From positions 1 to 64,000 of the forward strand of contig NZ_MLFR01000015.1 of assembly GCF_002095475.1 (NCBI RefSeq): a stretch of 64,000 nucleotides of DNA. Reading direction: 5' to 3'. The position numbers were made by a program, and so were the translations under genes. This document shows positions 49,141-64,000 of the stretch, one piece after another. The notes under the pieces were generated by a model. That model was not told the origin of the DNA. It worked only from the letters and a program-made list of their open reading frames with translations, and ran no database searches. This DNA is from Pantoea rwandensis (GTDB taxonomy: Bacteria > Pseudomonadota > Gammaproteobacteria > Enterobacterales > Enterobacteriaceae). How positions within the stretch are numbered: position 1 is the first letter of the stretch; every line of letters starts with the position of its first letter.

Positions 49141-52100
49141 ATGTTTGAAGCCGCACGCGTCGGTGACGATATCGGACATTCGCATGCCCTGATGGGCATG
49201 ATTGCTGGCACCCTGGTGGGCGGCCTGATTGCAGCCGTAGGAGGCATTGCCGCTGGTGCACTGATGCTAGCTGGGCTTGGCGCTGCCTGCCTTGGCGTTG
49301 GCGTTTTGTTGATGGGTGCCAGTTTTGCAGTGGGATACCTGACTGGCGAGTTAGCCACCGCAGCCAGAGACAGCATTGCTGATGCCGGTGCTGCCAGCAT
49401 GACCAAAAAAGGCACCATCACCACCGGCTCCTGGAATGTTTTTATCAACGGCAAACCTGCCGCCATTGCCACGGAGAGCAGAGTGGCCTGCTCCGACGAT
49501 GGCTCGCAGCAAATGGCCGAAGGCTCCTCACGCGTATTTATCAACGGCCTACCCGCCGCCCGTATTGGTGATCAAACCACCTGCGGTGCAAAGGTAATGA
49601 GTGGTTCGGGGAACGTGATAATTGGCGGCGCGCCACAGCAAACCCTCCCTATTCAGTCCGAAGTGCCTGAATGGGTCTATAAGGCTTCTGACCTCACGCT
49701 GTTGTTTGCTGGCCTGTTTGGTGGATTCGGTGGTGCGGCCGGTAAAGCCGGAGCTATCGGTAAACTGCTGAGCAAAATTCCAGGCATCAATAAACTCGCC
49801 CGCATCGCCTGCCGTGCCGGGGCGCTCATAACCGGTGCAGTCGCCGTTGGCATCGTTGCCCGTCCGGTGGATATTGTCAGTGGTCAGAAATTCCTTAGCG
49901 GTGACGATGAGCTCGACTTTGTGCTGCCCTCACGGCTACCCGTACGCTGGCAACGCTACTGGCGCAGCGGTAATCCTGGCGATAGCGTGCTGGGACGCGG
50001 CTGGAACCTGTTCTGGGAAACCCGGTTAGAACCTTATCAAGATGGTTTGGTATGGCGCGCGCCTTCAGGTGATTACGTCTCGTTTCCACAAGTACCCAAG
50101 GGACAACGAACCTACTGCGAGGCAGAAAAATACTGGCTGGAACACCATCTTGACGATAGCTGGTCAGTGTATGACATCAGCGGTGAACGCTGGCAGTTCA
50201 GTCCACAAAGTGCTGACGCCCCCTCCCTGCCACAACGCCTAAGTGAACCTTGTGGCAACGACATTCTGTTTGAATGGAATCCTGACCACAACCTGCACGC
50301 GCTGACCGACAGCGCGGGCCAACGCGTGGTCTGTCGTTATGCAAACAACCGCCTGATCGGTGCATGGCTGGATGACGAGATTTGTCTGGTCCATTACGCT
50401 TACGACGACGCGGGGCAACTGATCACAGTGACGAGCCGGGGCGGCAGCGTGCGCCGCCGCTTCCAGTGGCGTGATGGCCTGATGTCGGCCCACGAGGACA
50501 GCAACGGCTTGCTGAGTGAATACCTCTGGCAAGAGATTGACGGTCTGCCGCGTGTGGTTGCCTTTCGCCACAGTGCAGGCGAGCAGCTTAACTTCAGCTA
50601 TGACTTCGAGAACGGCACCCGTCTCGCCACGCGCGATGACGGTGCGCAAGCGCACTGGCTGATAGACGATGACGATAACGTTGCCCGCTTTACTGATTTC
50701 GATGGCAGCCAGACCGCGTTTGTCTATCGTGATAATGAGCTGTGCGACGTTATTTTGCCCGGCGGTGCGATGCGCAGCAGCAATTGGGATCGCTATGGTC
50801 GTATGCTGCAGGAGACCGATCCGGCAGGACGTCGCACCCGCTACCACTGGTTCCGCCTCACCGACCGTATCACTCGCATCGACTATCCTGATCTCAGCGC
50901 AACGCGCAGTGCGTACGACCTGCATGGACGCCTGGCGTCAGAAACGGATGCCCTGAACAACATCACCCACTATCACTACCCGGATGCGGAAGAAACGCTG
51001 CCTGACAGCATCACCGATGCCCTTGGCGGCACCGTCACGCTTCAATGGAACCGTCAGGGGCTGCTGACGCAGCACACCGACTGCTCCGGCAACGTCAGCC
51101 AATACCGTTATGATCGTTTTGGCAATCTGATAAGCAGCGAAAATGCCGAAGGCAACATCACTCAGCGCGAGTGGAACGCCGCCGGGCAACTGTGCGCAGT
51201 CACTTATCCCAACGGCGATCGCGAAACCTTACAGTGGAATAGCCAAGGGCAGCTTAGCGCCTGGCGTGACTCACTGGAAAGTGAGGTGCGCTGGCATTAC
51301 AACGCGCTGGGATTACCGGTCAGCCAGATCGACCGCATCGGCCGCACTCGCCGTTTGCATTACGACCCGCGTGGAAACTTGCTGCGCCTGGAAAACGGCA
51401 ACGGCGGTGAATATCGTTTCAGCTACGATCCGGTCAACAGACCACTGAGTGAGATCCGGCCCGACGACACTTCGCGCCTGATGCAATGGGATGAACGCGG
51501 TTTCCTCAGCGGGCTGCAGGAAAATGGCCGCCCCGACGCCGATGGCGGCACAGCGCGCCGCTGGCAGCAGTTCAGTTATGACGCCAGCGGTATCATCACT
51601 GGCCGCACTTCCCGTCACGCAGTCTATAACTATGAGCGTAACCACGGTGGCGAGCTTGTTCGTTTGCAGCGCACGCCAACGGCAGAAGGCGTGGCGCTGG
51701 GGATTGCAGAAAATGACGTCACCTTCACCCGAGACGCCGCTGGGCAGCTGCTTAACGAATCTGGCAGCAACGGCACGCTGGAATATGAATACGATGCACT
51801 GGGCAACCTCACCGCGCTGACGTTGCCTGATGAGCAACAGCTGGCATGGCTGCACTATGGTTCTGGGCATGTCAGCGCTATCCGCTTCGGTCAGCAACTG
51901 GTCAGTGAATTCACTCGCGATCGCCTGCACCGCGAAGTTCAGCGCAGCCAGGGCGCTCGAGAACAACATCGTCAATACGACAACTTGGGCAGGCGCACGC
52001 TGCAGCGCAGTAAACGCAGCAGCCGCATGACACCGCCTGAACAGCAGATTCTGGAGCGCGCATTCCGATACACAGCGCGCAGTGAACTGGAGGGCGTCAG

Positions 52101-53307
52101 CGATACCCTGCGCGGCGACATTATCTACGGCTATGACGATGAAGGCCGACTGCTGAAGCACTACGAGGCGCGTCAGGGCCACCGCACGTCTCAGTTTGGC
52201 TACGATGCGGCGGATAATCTCAACGCCACAGATCATGATCTGCCCACGTCACCCATCACGGATAACCGGCTCGGTCAGTGGCAAAACTTGTTTATGAAGT
52301 ATGACTGGTGGGGAAACCTTGTCAGCCGCCGAAACGGGTTTAGCGAGCAGCATTACACCTATGATGCGGAAAACAGACTGGTTGCCGCAGAAGGCACCGG
52401 ACCGCAGGGACGTTTCACCGCCCGTTATCATTATGATGCCCTGGGCAGACGCATCCGCAAAAGCGTCACCACCCAACAGGGCACGACAGAAACCCGTTTT
52501 CTGTGGCAGGGTTATCGCCTATTACAGGAGCAGCAGGAAACCGGCGGCTGCCAGACCTATGTCTACGACCCAGTTGAAATCTGGAGTCCGCTGGCGCGCA
52601 TTGACCATCATGTCGGAGACAAGCAGGGAGAAATCCTGTGGTTCAACACCGACCTGAACGGCGCCCCGCTGGAGGTCACTGATGCAAGCGGCGCATTGCG
52701 CTGGAGTGGTCAGTACGGTAGTTTTGGCGAGGTCAGCAGGCAAACGGAAGGCTTCAGCCGCTTAGGGCAGCACCCTGCCCTGCATCATCAGCCACTGCGC
52801 TATGCCGGACAATACGCCGACAGCGAGACGGGCCTGCACTATAATTTGTTCCGATATTATGATCCGCAGGTCGGAAGATTTACGGTGCAGGATCCTGTGG
52901 GGATCGCGGGTGGGATCAATCTTTATCAGTATGCGGTAAATCCGTTGGGGTGGATTGATCCCCTAGGTTTAACAGCTGAAAATTGTGCAAACACTGTTCA
53001 AGTTAAAAATAGAAAGGCTGCCATAAGAGCAGCCAAAGAGCATGCTCAGGTGCCACGAGTTTCTCGGGGTGGTGAGCCTATTGATATTGATAAACTTCGC
53101 CCTAACAGTAGAGGCGAGACATGGGCAAATATGAAATCTGAAGGAGGGAAAAAGCTAGGGATGGAGAATCCAAAAGGAAAAAATGAATGGTTTGAACACC
53201 CTGATGGCCACCCTGATGCTGGTCAGCCCGGAATCCCTGCACATCACAGCAGCGGGCATATCCATGCTATAAGTCCAAAAGGCATAAAGAAAGTTTTCAC
53301 ATGGTGA
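49141..53307 (+). CDS. PAAR-Rhs type VI secretion effector with C-terminal toxin
   Basis: 1388-aa polymorphic toxin. Order: N-terminal transmembrane pair (about residues 17-70), PAAR domain (about 85-165, VFINGKPAA, VFINGLPAARIGD), second hydrophobic region (about 180-240), Rhs/YD-repeat cage (about 250-1265), and the cleavage core RYYDPQVGRFTVQDPVGIAGG...NPLGWIDPLGL. The last 112 residues (about 1277-1388) are the toxin, clearly lower in GC than the rest. The toxin carries HPDGHPDAGQ and HHSSGHIHAI, histidine-rich motifs that suggest a metal-dependent nuclease of the HNH/Endo VII kind, but I cannot name the family. It follows its EagR chaperone and precedes the presumed immunity gene. Confidence 0.93.
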   Translation: MFEAARVGDDIGHSHALMGMIAGTLVGGLIAAVGGIAAGALMLAGLGAACLGVGVLLMGASFAVGYLTGELATAARDSIADAGAASMTKKGTITTGSWNVFINGKPAAIATESRVACSDDGSQQMAEGSSRVFINGLPAARIGDQTTCGAKVMSGSGNVIIGGAPQQTLPIQSEVPEWVYKASDLTLLFAGLFGGFGGAAGKAGAIGKLLSKIPGINKLARIACRAGALITGAVAVGIVARPVDIVSGQKFLSGDDELDFVLPSRLPVRWQRYWRSGNPGDSVLGRGWNLFWETRLEPYQDGLVWRAPSGDYVSFPQVPKGQRTYCEAEKYWLEHHLDDSWSVYDISGERWQFSPQSADAPSLPQRLSEPCGNDILFEWNPDHNLHALTDSAGQRVVCRYANNRLIGAWLDDEICLVHYAYDDAGQLITVTSRGGSVRRRFQWRDGLMSAHEDSNGLLSEYLWQEIDGLPRVVAFRHSAGEQLNFSYDFENGTRLATRDDGAQAHWLIDDDDNVARFTDFDGSQTAFVYRDNELCDVILPGGAMRSSNWDRYGRMLQETDPAGRRTRYHWFRLTDRITRIDYPDLSATRSAYDLHGRLASETDALNNITHYHYPDAEETLPDSITDALGGTVTLQWNRQGLLTQHTDCSGNVSQYRYDRFGNLISSENAEGNITQREWNAAGQLCAVTYPNGDRETLQWNSQGQLSAWRDSLESEVRWHYNALGLPVSQIDRIGRTRRLHYDPRGNLLRLENGNGGEYRFSYDPVNRPLSEIRPDDTSRLMQWDERGFLSGLQENGRPDADGGTARRWQQFSYDASGIITGRTSRHAVYNYERNHGGELVRLQRTPTAEGVALGIAENDVTFTRDAAGQLLNESGSNGTLEYEYDALGNLTALTLPDEQQLAWLHYGSGHVSAIRFGQQLVSEFTRDRLHREVQRSQGAREQHRQYDNLGRRTLQRSKRSSRMTPPEQQILERAFRYTARSELEGVSDTLRGDIIYGYDDEGRLLKHYEARQGHRTSQFGYDAADNLNATDHDLPTSPITDNRLGQWQNLFMKYDWWGNLVSRRNGFSEQHYTYDAENRLVAAEGTGPQGRFTARYHYDALGRRIRKSVTTQQGTTETRFLWQGYRLLQEQQETGGCQTYVYDPVEIWSPLARIDHHVGDKQGEILWFNTDLNGAPLEVTDASGALRWSGQYGSFGEVSRQTEGFSRLGQHPALHHQPLRYAGQYADSETGLHYNLFRYYDPQVGRFTVQDPVGIAGGINLYQYAVNPLGWIDPLGLTAENCANTVQVKNRKAAIRAAKEHAQVPRVSRGGEPIDIDKLRPNSRGETWANMKSEGGKKLGMENPKGKNEWFEHPDGHPDAGQPGIPAHHSSGHIHAISPKGIKKVFTW

Positions 53308-53313
53308 CTTAAT

Positions 53314-53922
53314 ATGATTAAAAATAACAATATCGCTATTTTCCCTTATCCCGACTGGTCTAATCTGACCGATAGCGATTTAGCATTATTAAAAAAACCA
53401 TATTGCATTTCTTGGTATGAAATTAGTGAGGATGGGGACATCCACTATGGTTTTAAAACTGAAGATGCAAAAAAATTCTTGAAGGAAATGTTTTTTGAGG
53501 TGATGTTCGTTGACGAAATGGATTACAAAACGCAATCACCAGTAGGATTAGAGCGAGGAGTTTTATTTTTTTATGATAATAAATCCACCTACAGCACGCT
53601 TAAAGATACCACAAAAAAATATTTCTTAAGCAAAAAGAAAGAAAGTATTTTTTTAAGAAAGGGGATAACCAACTTTGTTAAAGCTACAAAGCCGAAATTT
53701 ATATCAAGTCAGAAAAAAAACTCATTATCCACCTCATTAATCAATGAACACCTAACTGATGAGTTACCAATAATATCAGCAACTTACTTTACACCCGAAG
53801 CTGGAGAAACTATTATTCTCTTCGACGAAAACCTAAAGGTAAAAGCTAAGGGAGTTTGCTTGTCAATGGGAATAAAAATTCATAATTTCAATAGCATCGA
53901 TCAACTCCCCAATCCAGGCTAA
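53314..53922 (+). CDS. Presumed immunity protein for the Rhs toxin
   Basis: 202-aa cytosolic protein starting 6 nt after the Rhs stop, AT-rich like the toxin tail, with no recognised domain. It begins MIKNNNIAIFPYPDWSNLTDSD and has many lysines. Position right behind a Rhs toxin is the classical place of the immunity gene; the function is inferred from that alone. Confidence 0.72.
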   Translation: MIKNNNIAIFPYPDWSNLTDSDLALLKKPYCISWYEISEDGDIHYGFKTEDAKKFLKEMFFEVMFVDEMDYKTQSPVGLERGVLFFYDNKSTYSTLKDTTKKYFLSKKKESIFLRKGITNFVKATKPKFISSQKKNSLSTSLINEHLTDELPIISATYFTPEAGETIILFDENLKVKAKGVCLSMGIKIHNFNSIDQLPNPG

Positions 53923-56403: not shown

Positions 56404-56434
56404 CCGAACTAACGTGATTTATGGGATTTCAAGC

Positions 56435-57520
56435 ATGGCTAATGTAGACGCAGATTACTGCTATTCGTTTCCAGCTATACGGGGCATACAGGCTGGCCGC
56501 CCTTTCTATATTGCAACCTGCCCAATGCGTATCATTCCCAAAATTTTTAGTTTTGATGGGAATGACGTCCCACCAGAACTACGTGCGCAGCGGACGTTGA
56601 ATAAATCGCGCATTCCGGAAATGGTTAGATATTTACTTGAAAATCCTAAAGATTACATATTTTCAGCATTAACGGCTTCTATAGCTGTTGATGTCCAATT
56701 TGATGAGTTTCCAGGTTCAAATAACCTGGGGACTTTAAGTGTTCCAATGGATGCACAGATCCTCATAAATGATGGACAGCACCGTCGCAAGGCGATCGAA
56801 GATGCTCTAGATGCCCGTCCAGAATTGGGACAGGACAACATCCCTGTGCTGTTTTTTGTTGATGAAGGTCTGAAACGCAGTCAACAAATGTTTGCTGACT
56901 TGAACAAATATGCTATCCGCCCTAGCCCATCACTGTCATCGCTTTACGATCACCGTGACATCAGTTCAAACTTGGCACGTTACTTGGCCATGTCTGTGGA
57001 ACCATTTTTGGGAATGACTGAGTTAGAAAAATCTGGAATTAGTCAACGCTCAAACAAGCTGTTTACATTGAGCAGTATTAAACAGGCAACTCGTGCTCTA
57101 TTAGGTAAAGAGCCAAAAGAGGACAATTTTGAAGAGTGTTCTCAAATTGCCACACGTTACTGGCAGGCTGTCTTTAACGCGATGCCGGACTGGCAGTTAG
57201 CTGCTAAGAAAGAAGTTTCTCCGGTCCAGTTAAGACAAGACTATGTTCACGCACATGGCATTGGTTTGCAGGCTCTAGGGCAGCTAGGATATACACTTCT
57301 GACGGATTACCCTGATCAGTGGCAGGAGAAAATTACTGATCTGAAAACATTTAACTGGCGAAGAAATAATCCAGATTTGATTAAACGTGCAATGCAGCAC
57401 GGTAAGCTGAGTAAAACCAGCACAGCTATCCAGTTAACTAGTAATGCTCTTAAAAATGCATTATCCCTTCCTCTCTCTCCTGAAGAACAGGAGCTCGAAG
57501 CTCAAATGGTTGCATCATGA
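56435..57520 (+). CDS. dndB: DndB, regulator of DNA phosphorothioation
   Basis: 361-aa DGQHR-domain protein. The motif NDGQHRRKAIEDAL is near residues 110-123. The start at ATG 56435 is preferred over a GTG at 56414 because it gives MANVDADYCYSFPAIRGIQAG and puts a cysteine at position 29 (IATCPMRI), the residue reported as important for DndB function in Salmonella. DndB represses the dnd operon by binding the two palindromes upstream. Its stop overlaps the dndC start (ATGA). First gene of dndBCDE. Confidence 0.92.
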   Translation: MANVDADYCYSFPAIRGIQAGRPFYIATCPMRIIPKIFSFDGNDVPPELRAQRTLNKSRIPEMVRYLLENPKDYIFSALTASIAVDVQFDEFPGSNNLGTLSVPMDAQILINDGQHRRKAIEDALDARPELGQDNIPVLFFVDEGLKRSQQMFADLNKYAIRPSPSLSSLYDHRDISSNLARYLAMSVEPFLGMTELEKSGISQRSNKLFTLSSIKQATRALLGKEPKEDNFEECSQIATRYWQAVFNAMPDWQLAAKKEVSPVQLRQDYVHAHGIGLQALGQLGYTLLTDYPDQWQEKITDLKTFNWRRNNPDLIKRAMQHGKLSKTSTAIQLTSNALKNALSLPLSPEEQELEAQMVAS

Positions 57521-59151
57521 GTAAACTAGTTCAGGCCTTTGATTTGGCTGAATACGAAGATTTTATTAATAACGAGCAATTTGCTGGACGCCCCTTATCT
57601 GAATATGTTTCTGAAGTTCAGAGAATTTACTGCGCTGATAGACGCCCTTGGGTAATTGGCTATAGTGGTGGTAAGGACTCATCAGCAGTTATCACCTTAG
57701 TATATTTGGCCTTGTTAGGTCTAACTCCAGAGATGCGCAACAAAGACGTTTTCTTAGTGTCATCAGACACATTGGTTGAAACACCAGTAGTAGTTGATTT
57801 AATCAAGAAAACCATGATGCAGATAGAGGCTGGTGCAAAACGCAATAACTTGCCAATAACCCAACATTCAGTCACACCAAAAACTAATGAAACTTTCTGG
57901 GTCAATCTGTTGGGCAAAGGATATCCCGCTCCAACTCGAAGTTTTCGCTGGTGTACTGAAAGAATGAAAATTAATCCGGTTAGTGATTTTATAAAAGATA
58001 AAGTCAGCCAGTTTGATGAAGTTATTGTTGTCTTAGGTTCACGAAGCAGCGAGAGCGCATCGCGCGCACAAGTGATCGCGAAGCACAAAATTGATGGCTC
58101 ACGCCTCGCAAGACATACCACATTGCCAAATGCATTTATCTATACCCCTATCGATAGCTGGGACGTAGATGACGTATGGAAATTGTTGCGCGGTGCGTTT
58201 CGCTATGCCCCTGATGATATCAATGAATGGGAAAGTCCTTGGGCAGGAAATAACCGTCCTCTTTGGACTCTATATATGGACTCCTCAGCACAGGGGGAGT
58301 GCCCATTAGTGATCGATGAGAGTACCCCGTCCTGTGGTAACTCCCGCTTTGGCTGCTGGACCTGTACCGTAGTCACCAAAGATAAAGCGATGGAAAGTCT
58401 GATCAAGAATGGCGAAGAGTGGATGTCCCCTTTGCTGAAATATCGCGATCTGCTGGCATTTACTACCGACCCCGTGAATAAAGACACGTTCCGCAACTAT
58501 AAGCGCCGTACCGGTAAAGTGAGTTATCAATATGCCAAGGACGGTGAAGAAATCAGTGCGGAACGTAAGCATGTTCCCGGCCCTTACTGGCTAAAATATC
58601 GCCAGAAGTGGCTTAAAGAATTGCTGGAAATAGAGCGCGATTTGAACGATCAGGGCCATACCATCACGTTAATTACGCAGCCGGAGCTACATGCTATTCG
58701 CCAGGAATGGCTGAAAGACCCTAATGAGCCGGACTGGTACGACATTTTGCCAGGTATTTATCGCGACGTTTACGGAAAAGACTTGGACTGGGTTATTGAC
58801 GACCAGTCACGTTTCAATGCTAGCGATGCGGAACTGCTTGAGCAGATCGCCCAAGGGTTTGAGGTGGTTCCTGAGATGGTTATGAAACTGATTGAGCTCG
58901 AGGTTTCTATGGAAGGACTCAGTCGCCGTCAGGGTATCTTCGACAAACTTGGCACTATCTTGAAACAAGACTGGGGCAGTCTCGAAGAAATAAAACAGCA
59001 GCAACAAGCCTTGCAGAAACGGAACGACCGAGATATTCATCAGGATGAAGTAGCAAAATTGGAGACCGAACTACAGATCTTGCAGCGCAGAATTGCCGAA
59101 GTGAGCGAGCCGACTCTGCTTACCAGTGAGGAAAATGAACGTGTTAATTAA
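57517..59151 (+). CDS. dndC: DndC, PAPS-reductase-like sulfurtransferase of the Dnd system
   Basis: 544-aa ATP-pyrophosphatase fold protein. PP-loop GYSGGKDSSAVI near residue 48; R-rich loop CTERMKINPVSDFIKD; four cysteines in SCGNSRFGCWTCTVV for a 4Fe-4S cluster; a C-terminal coiled coil (about 450-540). It activates the DNA phosphate for replacement of oxygen by sulfur. The first 200 codons are much more AT-rich than the following part, so the gene may be a recombinant. Overlaps dndD by 17 nt. Confidence 0.93.
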   Translation: MSKLVQAFDLAEYEDFINNEQFAGRPLSEYVSEVQRIYCADRRPWVIGYSGGKDSSAVITLVYLALLGLTPEMRNKDVFLVSSDTLVETPVVVDLIKKTMMQIEAGAKRNNLPITQHSVTPKTNETFWVNLLGKGYPAPTRSFRWCTERMKINPVSDFIKDKVSQFDEVIVVLGSRSSESASRAQVIAKHKIDGSRLARHTTLPNAFIYTPIDSWDVDDVWKLLRGAFRYAPDDINEWESPWAGNNRPLWTLYMDSSAQGECPLVIDESTPSCGNSRFGCWTCTVVTKDKAMESLIKNGEEWMSPLLKYRDLLAFTTDPVNKDTFRNYKRRTGKVSYQYAKDGEEISAERKHVPGPYWLKYRQKWLKELLEIERDLNDQGHTITLITQPELHAIRQEWLKDPNEPDWYDILPGIYRDVYGKDLDWVIDDQSRFNASDAELLEQIAQGFEVVPEMVMKLIELEVSMEGLSRRQGIFDKLGTILKQDWGSLEEIKQQQQALQKRNDRDIHQDEVAKLETELQILQRRIAEVSEPTLLTSEENERVN

Positions 59152-61140
59152 ACAGCTGGTATTGCGTAATTTCCGTGTATTCAATGGTACTCATGTCATT
59201 GATTTGGCCCCGAGAAAGCGCCGGAACAATGATAACCCGCGTCCGATAGTTCTTTTCGGTGGGCTTAACGGAGCAGGAAAAACATCAATTCTGTCTGCAA
59301 TACGCCTGGCACTGTATGGTCGGTTAGCGTTCGGCTCAGGAACTCAACAACAAGAGTATGTTGAAGAACTTAGCGCATTAATTCACAACGGATCAACGAC
59401 TGATGAACGGCCAAATGAAGCGTCGATTGAACTCGTTTTCACGTATAACAAAGGAGGGCATGAAGCTGAGTTTACCGTCACGCGCACATGGAAAAAAGGG
59501 AAAAAGGATCAACTATCCCTCCAGCAAGATGACCAACTCCTTGAAGAACTGGATTACGATCAATGCCAGGGGTTCTTGAATGAATTAATTCCGCATGGAA
59601 TTGCCGATTTGTTCTTCTTTGATGGTGAAAAAATTGCAGAGCTCGCTGAAGATGACTCTGGTAATGTTCTACGTACAGCCGTACGTCGCTTGTTAGGTTT
59701 AGATCTCATCGCGAAACTTCGTAATGATTTGATGATCTTTGTTAAGCGTCAGCAATCCAGTCAACTAGCAGACTCCCAACAACAAAAACTTGCTGAACTC
59801 GAAGAACAGGTTAAGCAGTTTGCTTTCCAGACAGAGCATATTTTAGAAAAAGCTGATTTTGCCAAAATAAGATTTGATTTGTTTTCAAAAGAAATCAACC
59901 GGTATGAAGCACTTCTGAATGCGCAAGGTGGTGCTTTTGCTCAGACAAAAGCACAGGAAAACAGAAAGTCGACACTCTGTTAAAAGAAAAAGATCGCCTT
60001 GAAAAAGCATTGCGCCATGAATGCGATAGCTCACTACCTTACGCTCTAGCACCTAAGACTCTAGGTCTTTTGCTTGAGCAAATTAGTGCAGAGATACAAA
60101 TTAAGCAGGCGAACAGTTTTGAAAAGGAATTAACTCAATTTCTTACGCAGCTGAAAAATGATATTTCATTCCGCTCAGGAACTACTGGCAAAATTGCTGC
60201 AGAATCAATTGAAGATAATCTGAAAGATTACCTGGCAGGAAAACCGAAAGGTGAGCTGTTATTTGACATATCCGAACGCGAAGCTGGGATGATCCAACAA
60301 TCGATCGAAAAGGACAGCAAGAAAGCGTGGCTGCGTTTTGATCTTTATCGTAACCAATTGGGTGAAGTTGAAGAGCAGCTTGAGCAAGCCGCGGCAAACA
60401 TTGCTCGTGCACCGGAAGATGATCAACTTATCGATCTATTTGAAAAAATTCGGGAACTTGACCGTAAACGAGAGAGTAAACGGCAGGAGTATCGCTCGCT
60501 GTTGGAAGAAGCAAAACAAACTAAACAGCTGCAACTGGACTGTGCTCGTCAGGTACAAAAAACACACGATCTGGCACGTAATCAACATAACTCCGATAGT
60601 GCATTTAATAATGCCCAAGAAACAATCAACCTGCTTGACCGCTACAGCGAGCTTTTAACTCAAGCAAGGGTGAAAACACTATCAGCGAATTTTGAAGGTG
60701 CTTACCGTAAATTAGCTCGTAAAGAAGATTTGCAGCTCAATGCACACATCAATCCAGAAACGTTTGATGTGGAATTAGTGGATGAAAACGGCTCAGTGAT
60801 CAATCGCAAACTACTCTCTGCCGGAGAGAAACAGATCTATGCGATTGCAATTCTTGAGGCCTTGGCAAAAACTTCTGGTCGTGATTTGCCGGTAATCATT
60901 GATACTCCATTGGGCCGTTTAGACTCTCAACATAGAGATAAATTGATTAACCACTACTTCCCGTTTGCCAGCCATCAGGTAGTGTTGCTGTCTACAGATA
61001 CGGAAGTGGATGAGCGTTATTTTGTCGATCAATTGCGTGATGATATCTCTCATGCTTATGAGATTGTGTTTAATGCGCATACAAAATCATCGGTGCTGAA
61101 ACCTGGCTATTTCTGGGAATTAACCAAGGAGGCACTCTGA
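59135..61140 (+). CDS. dndD: DndD, SMC-like ATPase of the Dnd system, broken by one missing A near 59960
   Basis: ATPase of the RecF/SMC type that works with DndC/E on DNA. Walker A is GGLNGAGKTSILSAIRL in the first part (ATG 59135), DLFFFDGEKIAELAEDD follows, then the coiled coil. The frame breaks after GAFAQTKAQE; adding one A to the AAAA at 59958-59961 gives QEKQKVDTLLKEKDRLEK and joins it to the second ORF, which holds the ABC signature LLSAGEKQIYAIAIL and Walker B PVIIDTPLGRLD. Restored length is 668 aa, normal for DndD. Probable sequencing error; if real, the system is dead. Confidence 0.9.
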
Positions 61141-61493
61141 TGCTCCCGAATCGAATGGTGCTTAGTCGTCAGACTGAAGAGCAGCTTAAAAAATTGAAAG
61201 GGTATACCGGGATCACTCCGAATATTGCCGCCCGGCTGGCTTTTTTCCGCTCGGTGGAGAGTGAGTTTCGTTATTCCCCTGTGCGTGATACCAATAAGCT
61301 AGATGGCTCGCTGGTGCTGGATAAAATTACGTGGCTGGGGGAAACACTACAAGCTACGGAACTGGTGCTGAAAATGCTTTATCCTCAACTAGAGCAGAAA
61401 GCGATGATTAAGGCATGGGCGGCGCATGTCGAAGATGGTATTGCGGCATTAAGGAATTATCGGAGCTTAAAAGATTTCGCCATAAACTTATAA
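61140..61493 (+). CDS. dndE: DndE, DNA-binding protein of the Dnd system
   Basis: 117-aa small basic protein, nearly identical in my memory to enterobacterial DndE (MLPNRMVLSRQTEEQLKKLKGYTGITPN...). DndE forms tetramers that bind nicked DNA. The ATG overlaps the dndD TGA. Last gene of dndBCDE; no dndA (cysteine desulfurase) is present. Confidence 0.93.
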   Translation: MLPNRMVLSRQTEEQLKKLKGYTGITPNIAARLAFFRSVESEFRYSPVRDTNKLDGSLVLDKITWLGETLQATELVLKMLYPQLEQKAMIKAWAAHVEDGIAALRNYRSLKDFAINL

Positions 61494-61613: not shown

Positions 61614-62760
61614 TTATAAACCTGCCAGAAACAGCATCCGTTTATAAGCATCATTCATCCCTTTTGTTGATGAAGGATAAAGGGTAGAGTCAGAGAAATC
61701 CTCTTTATTTTTTATTACATTTAGATAGTTTGTAAAATCATCACTTATAACCTTCCTAGAAACGCCATGTTTAAGCAAGACAGCTTTTAAAAATTTAAAT
61801 ATGCAGGCAATGCCAACTGTTTTTTGAGAAAGTTATCATCCCCCAGATCTTTCCAAAAAATTTCATCTGTGGCCTCCAACGCTAAAGACAGTACTTCTTG
61901 AATAGCTTTATCATTCCCTTGAATATATAATTTTCTTAAGGGATACTCTGCATCATCTTTAAGAATACTTCTTCCATATATAGTACTTTCGCCCGCATAT
62001 CGCTTTGAGTTCATCAAATATCGATCATCTTTAGGATTCTTACTTATCAGAGAAAGTATAGCTTCTACAATAGAGGCAGTAGAAACACGCCAAGAAGCTG
62101 CATTATTTTTTTATGTTCATCTGCTGTTCTATATTTGATCCTATTTAACAAAGGCTTTTCACTATTGAAAAGCCGAACAAGATAAACAGCTAGGGTTTCT
62201 GGCGGCCAATTTATTGGCTCTTCATTATCCAGTTCATAACCAAACAATTGATATGCTAGACTTTTATCAACTTTCCCTTGATTGTAATTTATCGTCGAAA
62301 ATAAAAAAGCTTGGTAGGGCATAGCCAAATCGATATAAATTGCACAAAGTAGATCCATTTGTGTTTCAGCATATTCAAAAGCATACAAGCGATGCTGCCC
62401 ATCAATAATAGAAAGAACTTCCGAATGTTTAGGCACCTTTATTGTGTATAGGTTCTCTGTAGTTGTTGGTTCAACTAAGCATCTTTCGTTTTCTCCAGCA
62501 TATCTACCTGATTTTAAAAAATTTGCCCCTAGAATTATTGAGTTAGGAAAAGCAGCAGACTCTCCATCAATAAACTTTGATATTTCGTGTAACCTTTTAT
62601 TATTCAGTAAACGCTGAACACCTTGGATAGTTCCATTTACATTCTCGGCCTTCAAGGAAAAACTTATTTCCTTTAGAGTGACAGAAGGTATAACACATGC
62701 ATAATAATCAGCAAATGGCTGGGATACTTTCATTGCTAAAAATTCATGATATCCACTCAT
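61614..62760 (-). CDS. Second DGQHR-family (DndB-like) protein, two one-base frameshifts
   Basis: Restored length is about 382 aa. The N-terminal part (MSGYHEFLAMKVSQPFADYY) carries IDGQHRLYAFEYAE near residue 118. The frame is lost at two A runs. At 62106-62112 (seven T on the plus strand) one extra base gives DEHKKNNAASWRVSTASIVEAIL. At 61820-61825 (six T) one extra base gives LKKTVGIACIFKFLKAVLLKHGVS and continues to a TAA at 61614-61616. Both joined segments read like the family. It is distinct from DndB, with little sequence in common outside the motif. Its start overlaps the membrane-protein stop. Role unknown. Confidence 0.82.
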
Positions 62761-63560
62761 TCTAAGCCATCTCCATTTAGTTGAGTAACGGGGTGTTCTG
62801 GAGAAATTGCCGCCTCATCGAGGCCCATACCTTGTAATTTATCACTATCCAATACTATGCCACCAACAAGATTGTTTGCATCCGTATTTACGATATATTC
62901 CTTTTTCCTAATATTTGTGAATATCCATAAAAAAATCGATAACACTCCTCCCCAGAAGACCTGAGGGGAATCGCCTGTTGGATTTTTCAATGCAAAGAAT
63001 GACAGTATAAATGCTACTACCCAAAGGAAAAATGCTGCATATTCCTTTACTCGGCTATCACTACCGTCATCATTTAATAAATCATCTGAGATAATATTTT
63101 TCTCGCACTCTGAACTATCTTTCTTTTGTATAAAAAACTCAGCAGCAATCCCACCCAACAACCCTAAGTTAAACATAAATAATGAAAAATTCTGAAAAAG
63201 AGTAATATCAAGAGATGAGATATACAAACAAACCACATTAACAGATTCAACTATTTTATCTGATTGTATAATCCCTCCCGATGTTGTTGTAATAATGGTA
63301 TTTGTTGGTACTATTGTTTCACAGACAGGGGAGAGGTCTAAAGAGTATAACCATGGAGCCCATATCCCTGCACTAGATATAAGCATAATAACTAAAAATG
63401 AAAATATAAATTTTGGATTTTGTACTACTTCATATATTACAGACAGAAGGAAATTCCATAATAAAAACCAATACTTAAAATATCCTTTTTCATCAATCTT
63501 TAGCCTATTGATTGATAAGTAATATTTTGTACAAGTAAGGAATTTTTCTATTTTATTCAT
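62757..63560 (-). CDS. Five-helix membrane protein between dptH and the DGQHR gene
   Basis: 267-aa protein without a recognised domain. Hydrophobic stretches: WFLLWNFLLSVIYEVV, FIFSFLVIMLISSAGIW, FSLFMFNLGLLGGIAAEFF, YAAFFLWVVAFILSFFAL and VFWGGVLSIFLWIFTNI. Between helices 2 and 3 is a loop with two cysteines (PVCETIV, NVVCLY); after helix 3 is an acidic loop. ATG 63560 is chosen because GGGAG lies 7 nt upstream and it overlaps the dptH stop (ATGA). Function unknown; its tight coupling to dptH and the DGQHR gene suggests one module. Confidence 0.8.
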   Translation of the reverse strand: MNKIEKFLTCTKYYLSINRLKIDEKGYFKYWFLLWNFLLSVIYEVVQNPKFIFSFLVIMLISSAGIWAPWLYSLDLSPVCETIVPTNTIITTTSGGIIQSDKIVESVNVVCLYISSLDITLFQNFSLFMFNLGLLGGIAAEFFIQKKDSSECEKNIISDDLLNDDGSDSRVKEYAAFFLWVVAFILSFFALKNPTGDSPQVFWGGVLSIFLWIFTNIRKKEYIVNTDANNLVGGIVLDSDKLQGMGLDEAAISPEHPVTQLNGDGLE

Positions 63561-64000
63561 ATAATTAACTCCCAAAATGCCTTGTCACGCATCTTCTTGA
63601 CCTTTTTATCTCCATCAATATACAAACTAAAATGCTTCTCAAGCTGCCGAATCTGTCCCATCAAAGACTCCTGCTCACCTTTATCATCGACGTTAAATAC
63701 CGCCTTGATATCCGCATTCTTAATTTCAGAAACACGATGGATCACCCACGTTAAAATATAGGAGGCGTAATTATTTTCACCAGTCTTAAAGTGGGTTATC
63801 TCCTGCGTTGACAGGATCGCACCAACACCATACTCACGACCTTCTTTAAGGATCTTCCTAAGGCTGGCAAAATCTTGGCGCATAAAGTTATCGGCTTCGT
63901 CCACCAGAATCATTTTGGTGAGTTGACGATAATCCCCTCGCACCACTGGTTTACCGCGCTTTTGCATCTGCGCGTAAAAAAGATCCAGTGTTAGCGCGAC
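63557..64000 (-). CDS. dptH: DptH (DndH), HerA-like ATPase of phosphorothioation-dependent restriction, C-terminal part
   Basis: The last 147 codons of the gene; the frame is open at the window edge. Walker B MILVDEADNFM is followed by LRKILKEGREYGVGAILSTQEITHF, the pattern of HerA/FtsK-like translocases. DptF, DptG and DptH restrict DNA that lacks phosphorothioate marks. dptF and dptG would be beyond the right edge. The stop overlaps the start of the membrane protein. Confidence 0.88.
   Translation of the reverse strand, partial: VALTLDLFYAQMQKRGKPVVRGDYRQLTKMILVDEADNFMRQDFASLRKILKEGREYGVGAILSTQEITHFKTGENNYASYILTWVIHRVSEIKNADIKAVFNVDDKGEQESLMGQIRQLEKHFSLYIDGDKKVKKMRDKAFWELII

Follow-up and report, generated by a model that had tools for sequence, protein, structure and literature searches.

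What is a membrane-protein gene doing between dptH, a gene of the DptFGH restriction arm, and a gene for a second DGQHR (DndB-like) protein in Pantoea rwandensis? The question is raised by the end of the window, by which we mean the whole 64,000-nucleotide stretch analysed (contig NZ_MLFR01000015.1, positions 1 to 64,000). Our best reading, to which we give a probability of roughly 0.5, is that a modification enzyme works here with a ParB-fold reader, the DGQHR protein, and that the effector is a membrane protein instead of a nuclease. Direct support comes from the conservation of the gene pair, a shared family of membrane proteins with four transmembrane (TM) helices (4TM), the membership of the DGQHR protein in a reader family, the near-constant presence of modification genes, and nucleases at the position of the 4TM gene. 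The genes concerned are as follows.

62757..63560, minus strand: 4TM membrane protein, 267 amino acids (aa), proposed effector (family alignments, hhalign, AF2 helices)
61614..62760, minus strand: DGQHR gene, TIGR04172-type, DndB-like ParB/Srx fold, proposed modification reader (profile matches, motifs, model of a relative)
63557..64000, minus strand: dptH (dndH), C-terminal 147 aa (PADLOC DndH, 5.1e-95)
61140..61493, plus strand: dndE, convergent, closing the slot that holds the pair (Pfam DndE, 3.5e-29; 88% identical to annotated dndE)
56414..61140, plus strand: dndB, dndC and dndD for phosphorothioate modification, dndD as two open reading frames (ORFs) (ORFs, TIGR03233, identity to Escherichia coli ET490)

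Read directly on the minus strand, dptH, the membrane-protein gene and the DGQHR gene are consecutive, with overlapping starts and stops: one ATGA (63560-63557) is common to the dptH stop and the membrane-gene start, and another (62760-62757) to the membrane-gene stop and the DGQHR start, as an earlier sequence-only reading of this DNA had stated. An alternative upstream TTG start of the membrane gene is possible at 63575. The pair has a G+C content of 33-35%, against 44-45% for dptH and dndBCDE, which fits an inserted cassette.

The sequence-only reading had called the last gene a second DGQHR (DndB-like) protein, and this is upheld. Its 231-aa ORF (62065-62760, minus strand) exceeds the cut-offs of TIGR03187 (2.6e-33, 116 bits, cut-off 58.85) and of Pfam DndB (PF14072; 1.1e-9, 38.3 bits, cut-off 29.1), and it matches TIGR04172 (DGQHR_dnd_1) at 1.8e-70 and 237.9 bits, under that model's cut-off of 450. 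The gene is broken twice, its three parts lying in three frames and matching successive stretches of TIGR04172 (62116-62736, 235.9 bits; 61784-62125, 73.7 bits; 61641-61829, 21.7 bits). Unbroken copies are present in relatives; the nearest intact ones reach 356.7 and 366.3 bits, likewise under 450, and in a sample of 392 Enterobacteriaceae genomes, searched with TIGR04172 and the DndH model PDLC02685, the TIGR04172 cut-off was passed in three (G195, G108, G369; G and L numbers are our handles for genomes and loci). With the break in dndD, three frame breaks fall within about 3 kb, reflecting real decay or draft errors, and errors in the draft sequence are a possible cause in both genes.

Across 23 aligned intact relatives, Q49, R50, D120-R124, F154 and N158 are invariant, and the corresponding QR, DGQHR and FxxxN motifs (listed in PMC4619093) are also found in the window piece. 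The predicted model of an intact relative matches the ParB fold, placing it among ParB/Srx-fold proteins, and a profile comparison with DndB (hhalign) gave Prob 94. Judged by these profiles and motifs, the protein is a member of the TIGR04172-type DGQHR family within the DndB-like ParB/Srx superfamily; it appears to be NTPase-like, with DndB as a relative and the DUF262 half of DndI, SspE and GmrSD as more distant ones. DndB itself was rejected as its identity: TIGR03233 gives 22.5 bits against a cut-off of 328, and the gene does not lie in the dndBCDE operon.

For the membrane protein, the five helices of the sequence-only reading become four. The family alignment points to four likely TM helices after two N-terminal helices, and AF2 predicts helices at 49-75, 116-155, 169-192 and 200-221 with low confidence (pLDDT 59). 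The charge distribution suggests that both ends lie inside in 48 of 48 proteins by summed loops, a weak test in which the tails are included. No Pfam family was matched over its cut-off, no NCBIfam or PADLOC model to E 1 and no PHROG to E 0.001. Profile and structure searches, which had been proposed for both proteins, placed the DGQHR protein (TIGR04172, ParB fold) but gave the membrane protein neither a curated family nor a clear PDB fold. When 19 dnd-linked 4TM proteins were compared with 29 others as hhalign profiles, the probability was 93.4 (E 2.4e-7) over 122 columns covering all four helices, as against 1.1 for a reversed profile and at most 1.0 for ten block-shuffled ones; by this measure the dnd-linked and prophage 4TM proteins share one family. 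Distances among 4TM proteins agree with those among their DGQHR partners (Mantel r 0.71, 43 pairs), which shows joint inheritance and nothing more.

Many E. coli 4TM proteins carry the RefSeq name AgrB, or accessory gene regulator B (PF04647). The member from E. coli 55989 scores 24.0 bits with Pfam AgrB (cut-off 23.0), while seven other membrane partners scanned, together with the window protein, gave no Pfam AgrB match; with one of eight membrane partners barely over the cut-off, an AgrB identity appears unlikely. The PADLOC 2TM effector model found one weak match (E 0.009), to L084 alone among seven membrane partners scanned.

How widely is the pair found beside dptH? TIGR04172 matched in 21 of the 392 genomes, and the loci opened were the eight strong ones plus G311, G281, G268 and G265. 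The order dptFGH, membrane-protein gene, DGQHR gene and convergent dndEDCB is shared by all eight strong loci, the window and G311, that is, by 10 of 10 opened loci with a strong or mid match and a dptH neighbour (window included). G281 has the pair without dnd genes, G268 has no such pair, and the neighbour in G265, of 280 aa, contains three hydrophobic segments. The DndH model matched 35 genomes; of the 30 loci given, 26 were scored and 20 had readable sequence after dptH, six being left out for a contig end (L059, L067, L072, L073) or a partial dptH (L075 and L076, the latter with a DUF262 protein next). Counted beside dptH, as the sequence-only reading had suggested, the pair occupies 10 of these 20 dptH-dndE slots. 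Nucleases of the HARE-HTH-Mrr type hold four (Pfam-confirmed in L056, the others by similarity), and DUF262- or ParB-like proteins three (L061 by a GmrSD_N match below cut-off; L064 and L062 by eye). The remaining slots contain one other DGQHR protein, one GHKL-like protein (by eye) and no gene in one case. In G311 the slot is taken by a HARE-HTH domain fused to a 4TM domain. Over its first 66 residues this protein shares 48-50% identity with the HARE-HTH of two of those Mrr proteins, although it matches Pfam HARE-HTH below cut-off (E 0.1). According to a 2015 paper, one to three hypothetical proteins lie between dpt and dnd (PMC4373003), and the pair would account for such proteins in E. coli islands. 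In G177 (L071) the GHKL-like tenant, judged by eye to be a GHKL-ATPase-like protein at least 490 aa long, is a candidate accessory defence gene.

A link specific to dptFGH gave way to a broader one. In a sample of 398 Pseudomonadota genomes DGQHR matched in 13, and besides the window the four best matches have a 4TM gene in four of four, next to dptFGH and dndBCDE (G1008), dndBCD (G798), a Dam-type gene directly upstream (G1075) or an ambiguous context (G992). The pair also accompanies dndBCDE or dnd-like genes, with no dptFGH in the region opened, in Rhizobium leguminosarum, R. phaseoli and Aureimonas. Among 18 DGQHR regions opened on plasmids (a non-random choice from 45 and 27 matching records in two overlapping searches), in 11 the gene upstream encodes 157-228 aa with three or four predicted TM segments; eight of the 11 accompany phosphorothioation genes or close dnd-like sets, and the other three adenine methyltransferases. 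Two regions from lactic acid bacteria (L088, L094) encode a soluble domain with two C-terminal TM segments and have no adjacent methyltransferase; together with DGQHR this is perhaps a Gram-positive counterpart of the pair. A Pseudomonas aeruginosa plasmid (L095) has an HNH endonuclease in the 4TM position. The last four lack such a partner, although two of these, not counted, have other candidates: a gene of 145 aa with two hydrophobic segments, 129 bp upstream (Leptospira), and a 351-aa ORF with two hydrophobic segments (Novosphingobium). The idea that the pair might be confined to this strain is rejected: it is shared by Gamma- and Alphaproteobacteria and recurs in prophage contigs. It is found away from dpt, with dnd sets lacking dptFGH nearby and with adenine methyltransferases, and a specific link to dptFGH was rejected. 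The sequence-only reading had named equal frequency away from dpt genes as a refutation, and this applies in part; the link to DNA modification still holds, a mark-writing enzyme lying near all 4TM-DGQHR loci examined except L036 and the ambiguous G992.

This link is clearest in viral contigs, where a scan with the DGQHR alignment gave 48 loci, 29 close (L102-L130, with the proteins of L120 and L130 duplicating others) and 19 remoter; the division follows the tblastn ranking, yet it was drawn after the neighbours were known. In 26 of the 29 close loci the DGQHR gene is preceded on the same strand by an ORF of 167-258 aa that has 2-5 hydrophobic segments; L105 and L124 have a stop-free frame with three hydrophobic segments at the same place, missed by the ORF rule, and L115 begins at a contig edge. 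None of the 19 remoter loci has a neighbour with two or more hydrophobic segments. A linked modification enzyme, which in the window is dndBCDE (dndD split), is a DNA adenine methyltransferase in all 29 close loci (by blastp similarity). In 26 it is an adjacent D12 gene, which lies upstream and co-oriented in 13 and downstream and convergent in the other 13; L105 and L110 have MT-A70 together with a BglII-like nuclease, and L103 has a CcrM-like gene. Pfam MethyltransfD12 was confirmed in four of four viral methyltransferases scanned, and TIGR00571 (dam) matched four of five, the exception being Acinetobacter L087. The methylated site is probably GATC, because of the matches to the Dam model and the company of BglII/BstYI. 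By annotation and blastp, no dnd genes lie in the opened regions of methyltransferase-linked pairs, and the DGQHR tree is split by chemistry, phosphorothioate against adenine methylation, with one exception. Seven viral loci (L132, L134, L135, L137, L139, L142, L145) encode, beside D12 adenine methyltransferases, DGQHR proteins in which a long N-terminal part precedes DGQHR and the total length is about 760-810 aa; these are possibly one-chain effector-reader relatives without a TM partner. In the filamentous Pseudomonas phage PfAC19 (L150) a DGQHR gene lies beside the repressor and is followed by a partner of about 324 aa, and Providencia and Leptospira plasmids have similar pairs of DGQHR and about 300 aa.

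Based on these results, we suggest that the locus provides mark-gated immunity with an exchangeable effector, because a reader of the DndB/DndI superfamily, a mark writer nearby and a partner that is either a nuclease or a 4TM protein are found together. The pair would be a mobile two-gene module of reader and effector, in which the DGQHR protein is probably the reader of the cell's own mark. This mark would be phosphorothioate in Dnd islands, and N6-methyladenine, probably in GATC, in the versions from prophages, plasmids and chromosomes. Lying in the inner membrane, the 4TM protein would probably be the effector, switched on when the DGQHR protein meets unmarked invading DNA; it would most likely open or disrupt the membrane, and the infected cell would stop before phage release. 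The whole would work like restriction-modification with a membrane effector replacing the nuclease, the main variant being that the 4TM protein guards DNA entry at the membrane. We infer a role in defence, the direction of sensing, a complex of both proteins and membrane damage from this arrangement, disruption by the 4TM protein being the least certain step. That the pair represents a new class of restriction-like immunity, in which a writer (phosphorothioation or Dam-type) is joined by a DGQHR reader and a 4TM protein, a missing self mark leads to membrane disruption, reader clades are specialised by mark and effectors are interchangeable, is a tentative proposal that we hold at somewhat less than even odds. 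If the reading is true, DNA self-marking would control a membrane effector besides nucleases, and a single reader-effector pair would work with two very dissimilar DNA marks; the compact three-gene prophage cassettes (methyltransferase, 4TM, DGQHR) allow direct tests of such immunity.

Known systems offer close parallels. In 2011 TIGR04172, the "DNA phosphorothioation-associated DGQHR protein 1", was reported from seven genomes as a satellite of phosphorothioation, with DptFGH sometimes present and sometimes absent (PMC3226654, ProPhylo). The window protein and its intact relatives match this model, and their location in phosphorothioation islands agrees with it; however, the window pieces and most relatives fall below its cut-off, the passage on this family names no membrane partner and treats phosphorothioation-linked members only, and the clade seen here also has a large adenine-methylation branch. 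A family that has stood as an orphan since 2011 would gain a partner, which belongs to no curated family searched. In DndI of Salmonella Cerro 87 (DUF262 plus DUF1524 HNH; structure 9JFL), ATPase activity is stimulated by the mark, which also frees the enzyme from self DNA (PMC11662687), and by analogy such a switch may apply to the DGQHR protein. Both DndI and SspE likewise couple a mark-reading ParB/DUF262-type NTPase domain to an effector alongside a phosphorothioate modification system, and the DndI DGQxR motif (D83GQQR87; PMC11662687) resembles the DGQHR motif; however, they carry reader and HNH nuclease in one polypeptide, whereas here a separate DGQHR reader stands beside its 4TM partner.

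According to a proposal by Rakesh and co-workers (PMC10853773), modified DNA is discriminated by the HARE-HTH-REase proteins found at Dnd loci. These accessory genes use the same slot, and their HARE-HTH domain recurs in G311; however, the section of that paper on Dnd accessory genes covers nucleases only, whereas in G311 the HARE-HTH front end carries a membrane domain. In its main text, the whole words membrane, 2TM and 4TM are absent, and transmembrane occurs once, in the references. Neither the membrane partner nor the pair is named in the titles, opening lines of abstracts and passages surveyed in the open-licence literature, with preprints and most subscription journals outside it. A cytosolic sensor with a membrane effector is also the design of CBASS with 2TM or 4TM effectors. 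The pair would work alike, though no clear family match was found, and a cyclase or other CBASS parts were not sought.

Several points weigh against the reader-effector proposal. The 4TM model shows no clear fold in comparison with the PDB, and we know of no activity for this 4TM family. The DGQHR profile compared with this genome's DndI-like protein reached Prob 6, with the motif alone aligned. L036 has the pair without an adjacent methyltransferase, though its genome has dam genes, one about 15 kb away, and L035, the exception in the tree, combines a phosphorothioate island with a reader of the adenine clade; the tree is a quick one with long branches, and the placement of L095 (HNH) in it is unreliable. 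Action on unmarked DNA and action on wrongly marked DNA cannot be told apart from sequence. Finally, the reader is broken in the window and in many E. coli genomes, yet the 4TM frame mostly stays open; in many hosts the module could be expendable, or the 4TM protein could serve a different role. A DNA match to the L029 pair occurs in 140 of 5426 E. coli genomes (109 over at least 80%), and among 60 listed of 123 records, which are largely clonal, DGQHR is full-length by name in 9 and in pieces in 51, 50 of which still have an annotated 4TM gene. One widespread haplotype (e.g., NC_011748.1) has DGQHR in two annotated pieces and an open 4TM gene, named accessory gene regulator B. Such records, like the window, show that loss of the module can occur.

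The open 4TM gene beside a broken reader would also suit a guard of DNA entry, since a 4TM protein that anchors the DGQHR protein at the inner membrane, as a docking site or gate at which phage or conjugative DNA coming in is screened for the mark and kept out, may be harmless alone and need not kill. A place beside a prophage repressor is common for genes excluding other phages, and the pair adjoins the repressor gene in prophage contigs such as L117, where repressor, primase and tail genes are the neighbours. HNH or Mrr nucleases replacing the 4TM protein at the same place fit an effector better than an anchor, and we regard the entry guard, though the leading rival, as unlikely. Less probable still is a regulator, with the DGQHR protein in a DndB-like role, adjusting the expression or activity of dpt or methyltransferase genes jointly with the membrane protein. 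To our knowledge, regulators rarely need a conserved four-helix membrane partner. DndB, of the same superfamily and matched in the hhalign comparison, does control DndCDE levels and phosphorothioation (PMC4507180), but dndB is already present in the window and several phosphorothioate loci opened, and the pair accompanies unrelated modification enzymes. The sequence-only reading had offered a regulatory or membrane-anchored effector arm: the effector arm is supported as a module, with the pair conserved and nucleases replacing the 4TM protein, while the tuning of Dnd restriction is not supported.

An overlapping two-gene operon on mobile elements with a small membrane protein first would also suit toxin-antitoxin addiction, with the 4TM protein a constitutive membrane toxin and the DGQHR protein, or the DNA mark, an antidote that stabilises the island or prophage. 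We consider this improbable because the 4TM frame is open beside a broken DGQHR gene in the window and in the E. coli records above, though clonal spread and sequence errors weaken this argument. That the pair is DndI or another described Dnd component, as the sequence-only reading had allowed, can practically be dismissed: DndI of Salmonella is co-transcribed with dndFGH (PMC11662687), but DUF262 and HNH domains are found in none of the membrane protein, the 231-aa DGQHR piece and the intact relative L034, and a DndI-like gene lies separately upstream of dptF.

That gene encodes a 585-aa DUF262-DUF1524 (GmrSD/DndI-like) protein (L002:12494-14251, contig C15 about 72493-74250, outside the window; 32.5% G+C), which has GmrSD_N and GmrSD_C domains and matches 9jfl_B at 7.7e-16. 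With it, the island may hold three restriction arms: DptFGH, the DndI-like protein and the 4TM-DGQHR pair. Beyond the window the contig goes on with the rest of dptH (in full L002:3558-8648, 1696 aa, contig C15; 90.6% identical to the annotated dptH of E. coli ET490), then dptG and dptF, the three being 81-91% identical to the annotated ET490 genes. The dndBCDE genes span 56414-61493, convergent to dptH and the pair, and their identities to ET490 are 92.5% for dndB, 90.1% for dndC and 76-80% for dndD; the true dndB lies at 56414-57520 (TIGR03233, 460.7 bits), and dndD is broken into ORFs at 59126-59983 and 60010-61140. PADLOC PDLC03334, labelled a Type II methyltransferase (117 positions), matches the window DndE at 4.8e-74, better than the PADLOC DndE models, and may be mislabelled. 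At 49141-53922 the window has a gene for a large Rhs-repeat protein followed by a 202-aa ORF, which by eye resembles a polymorphic Rhs effector with its immunity gene.
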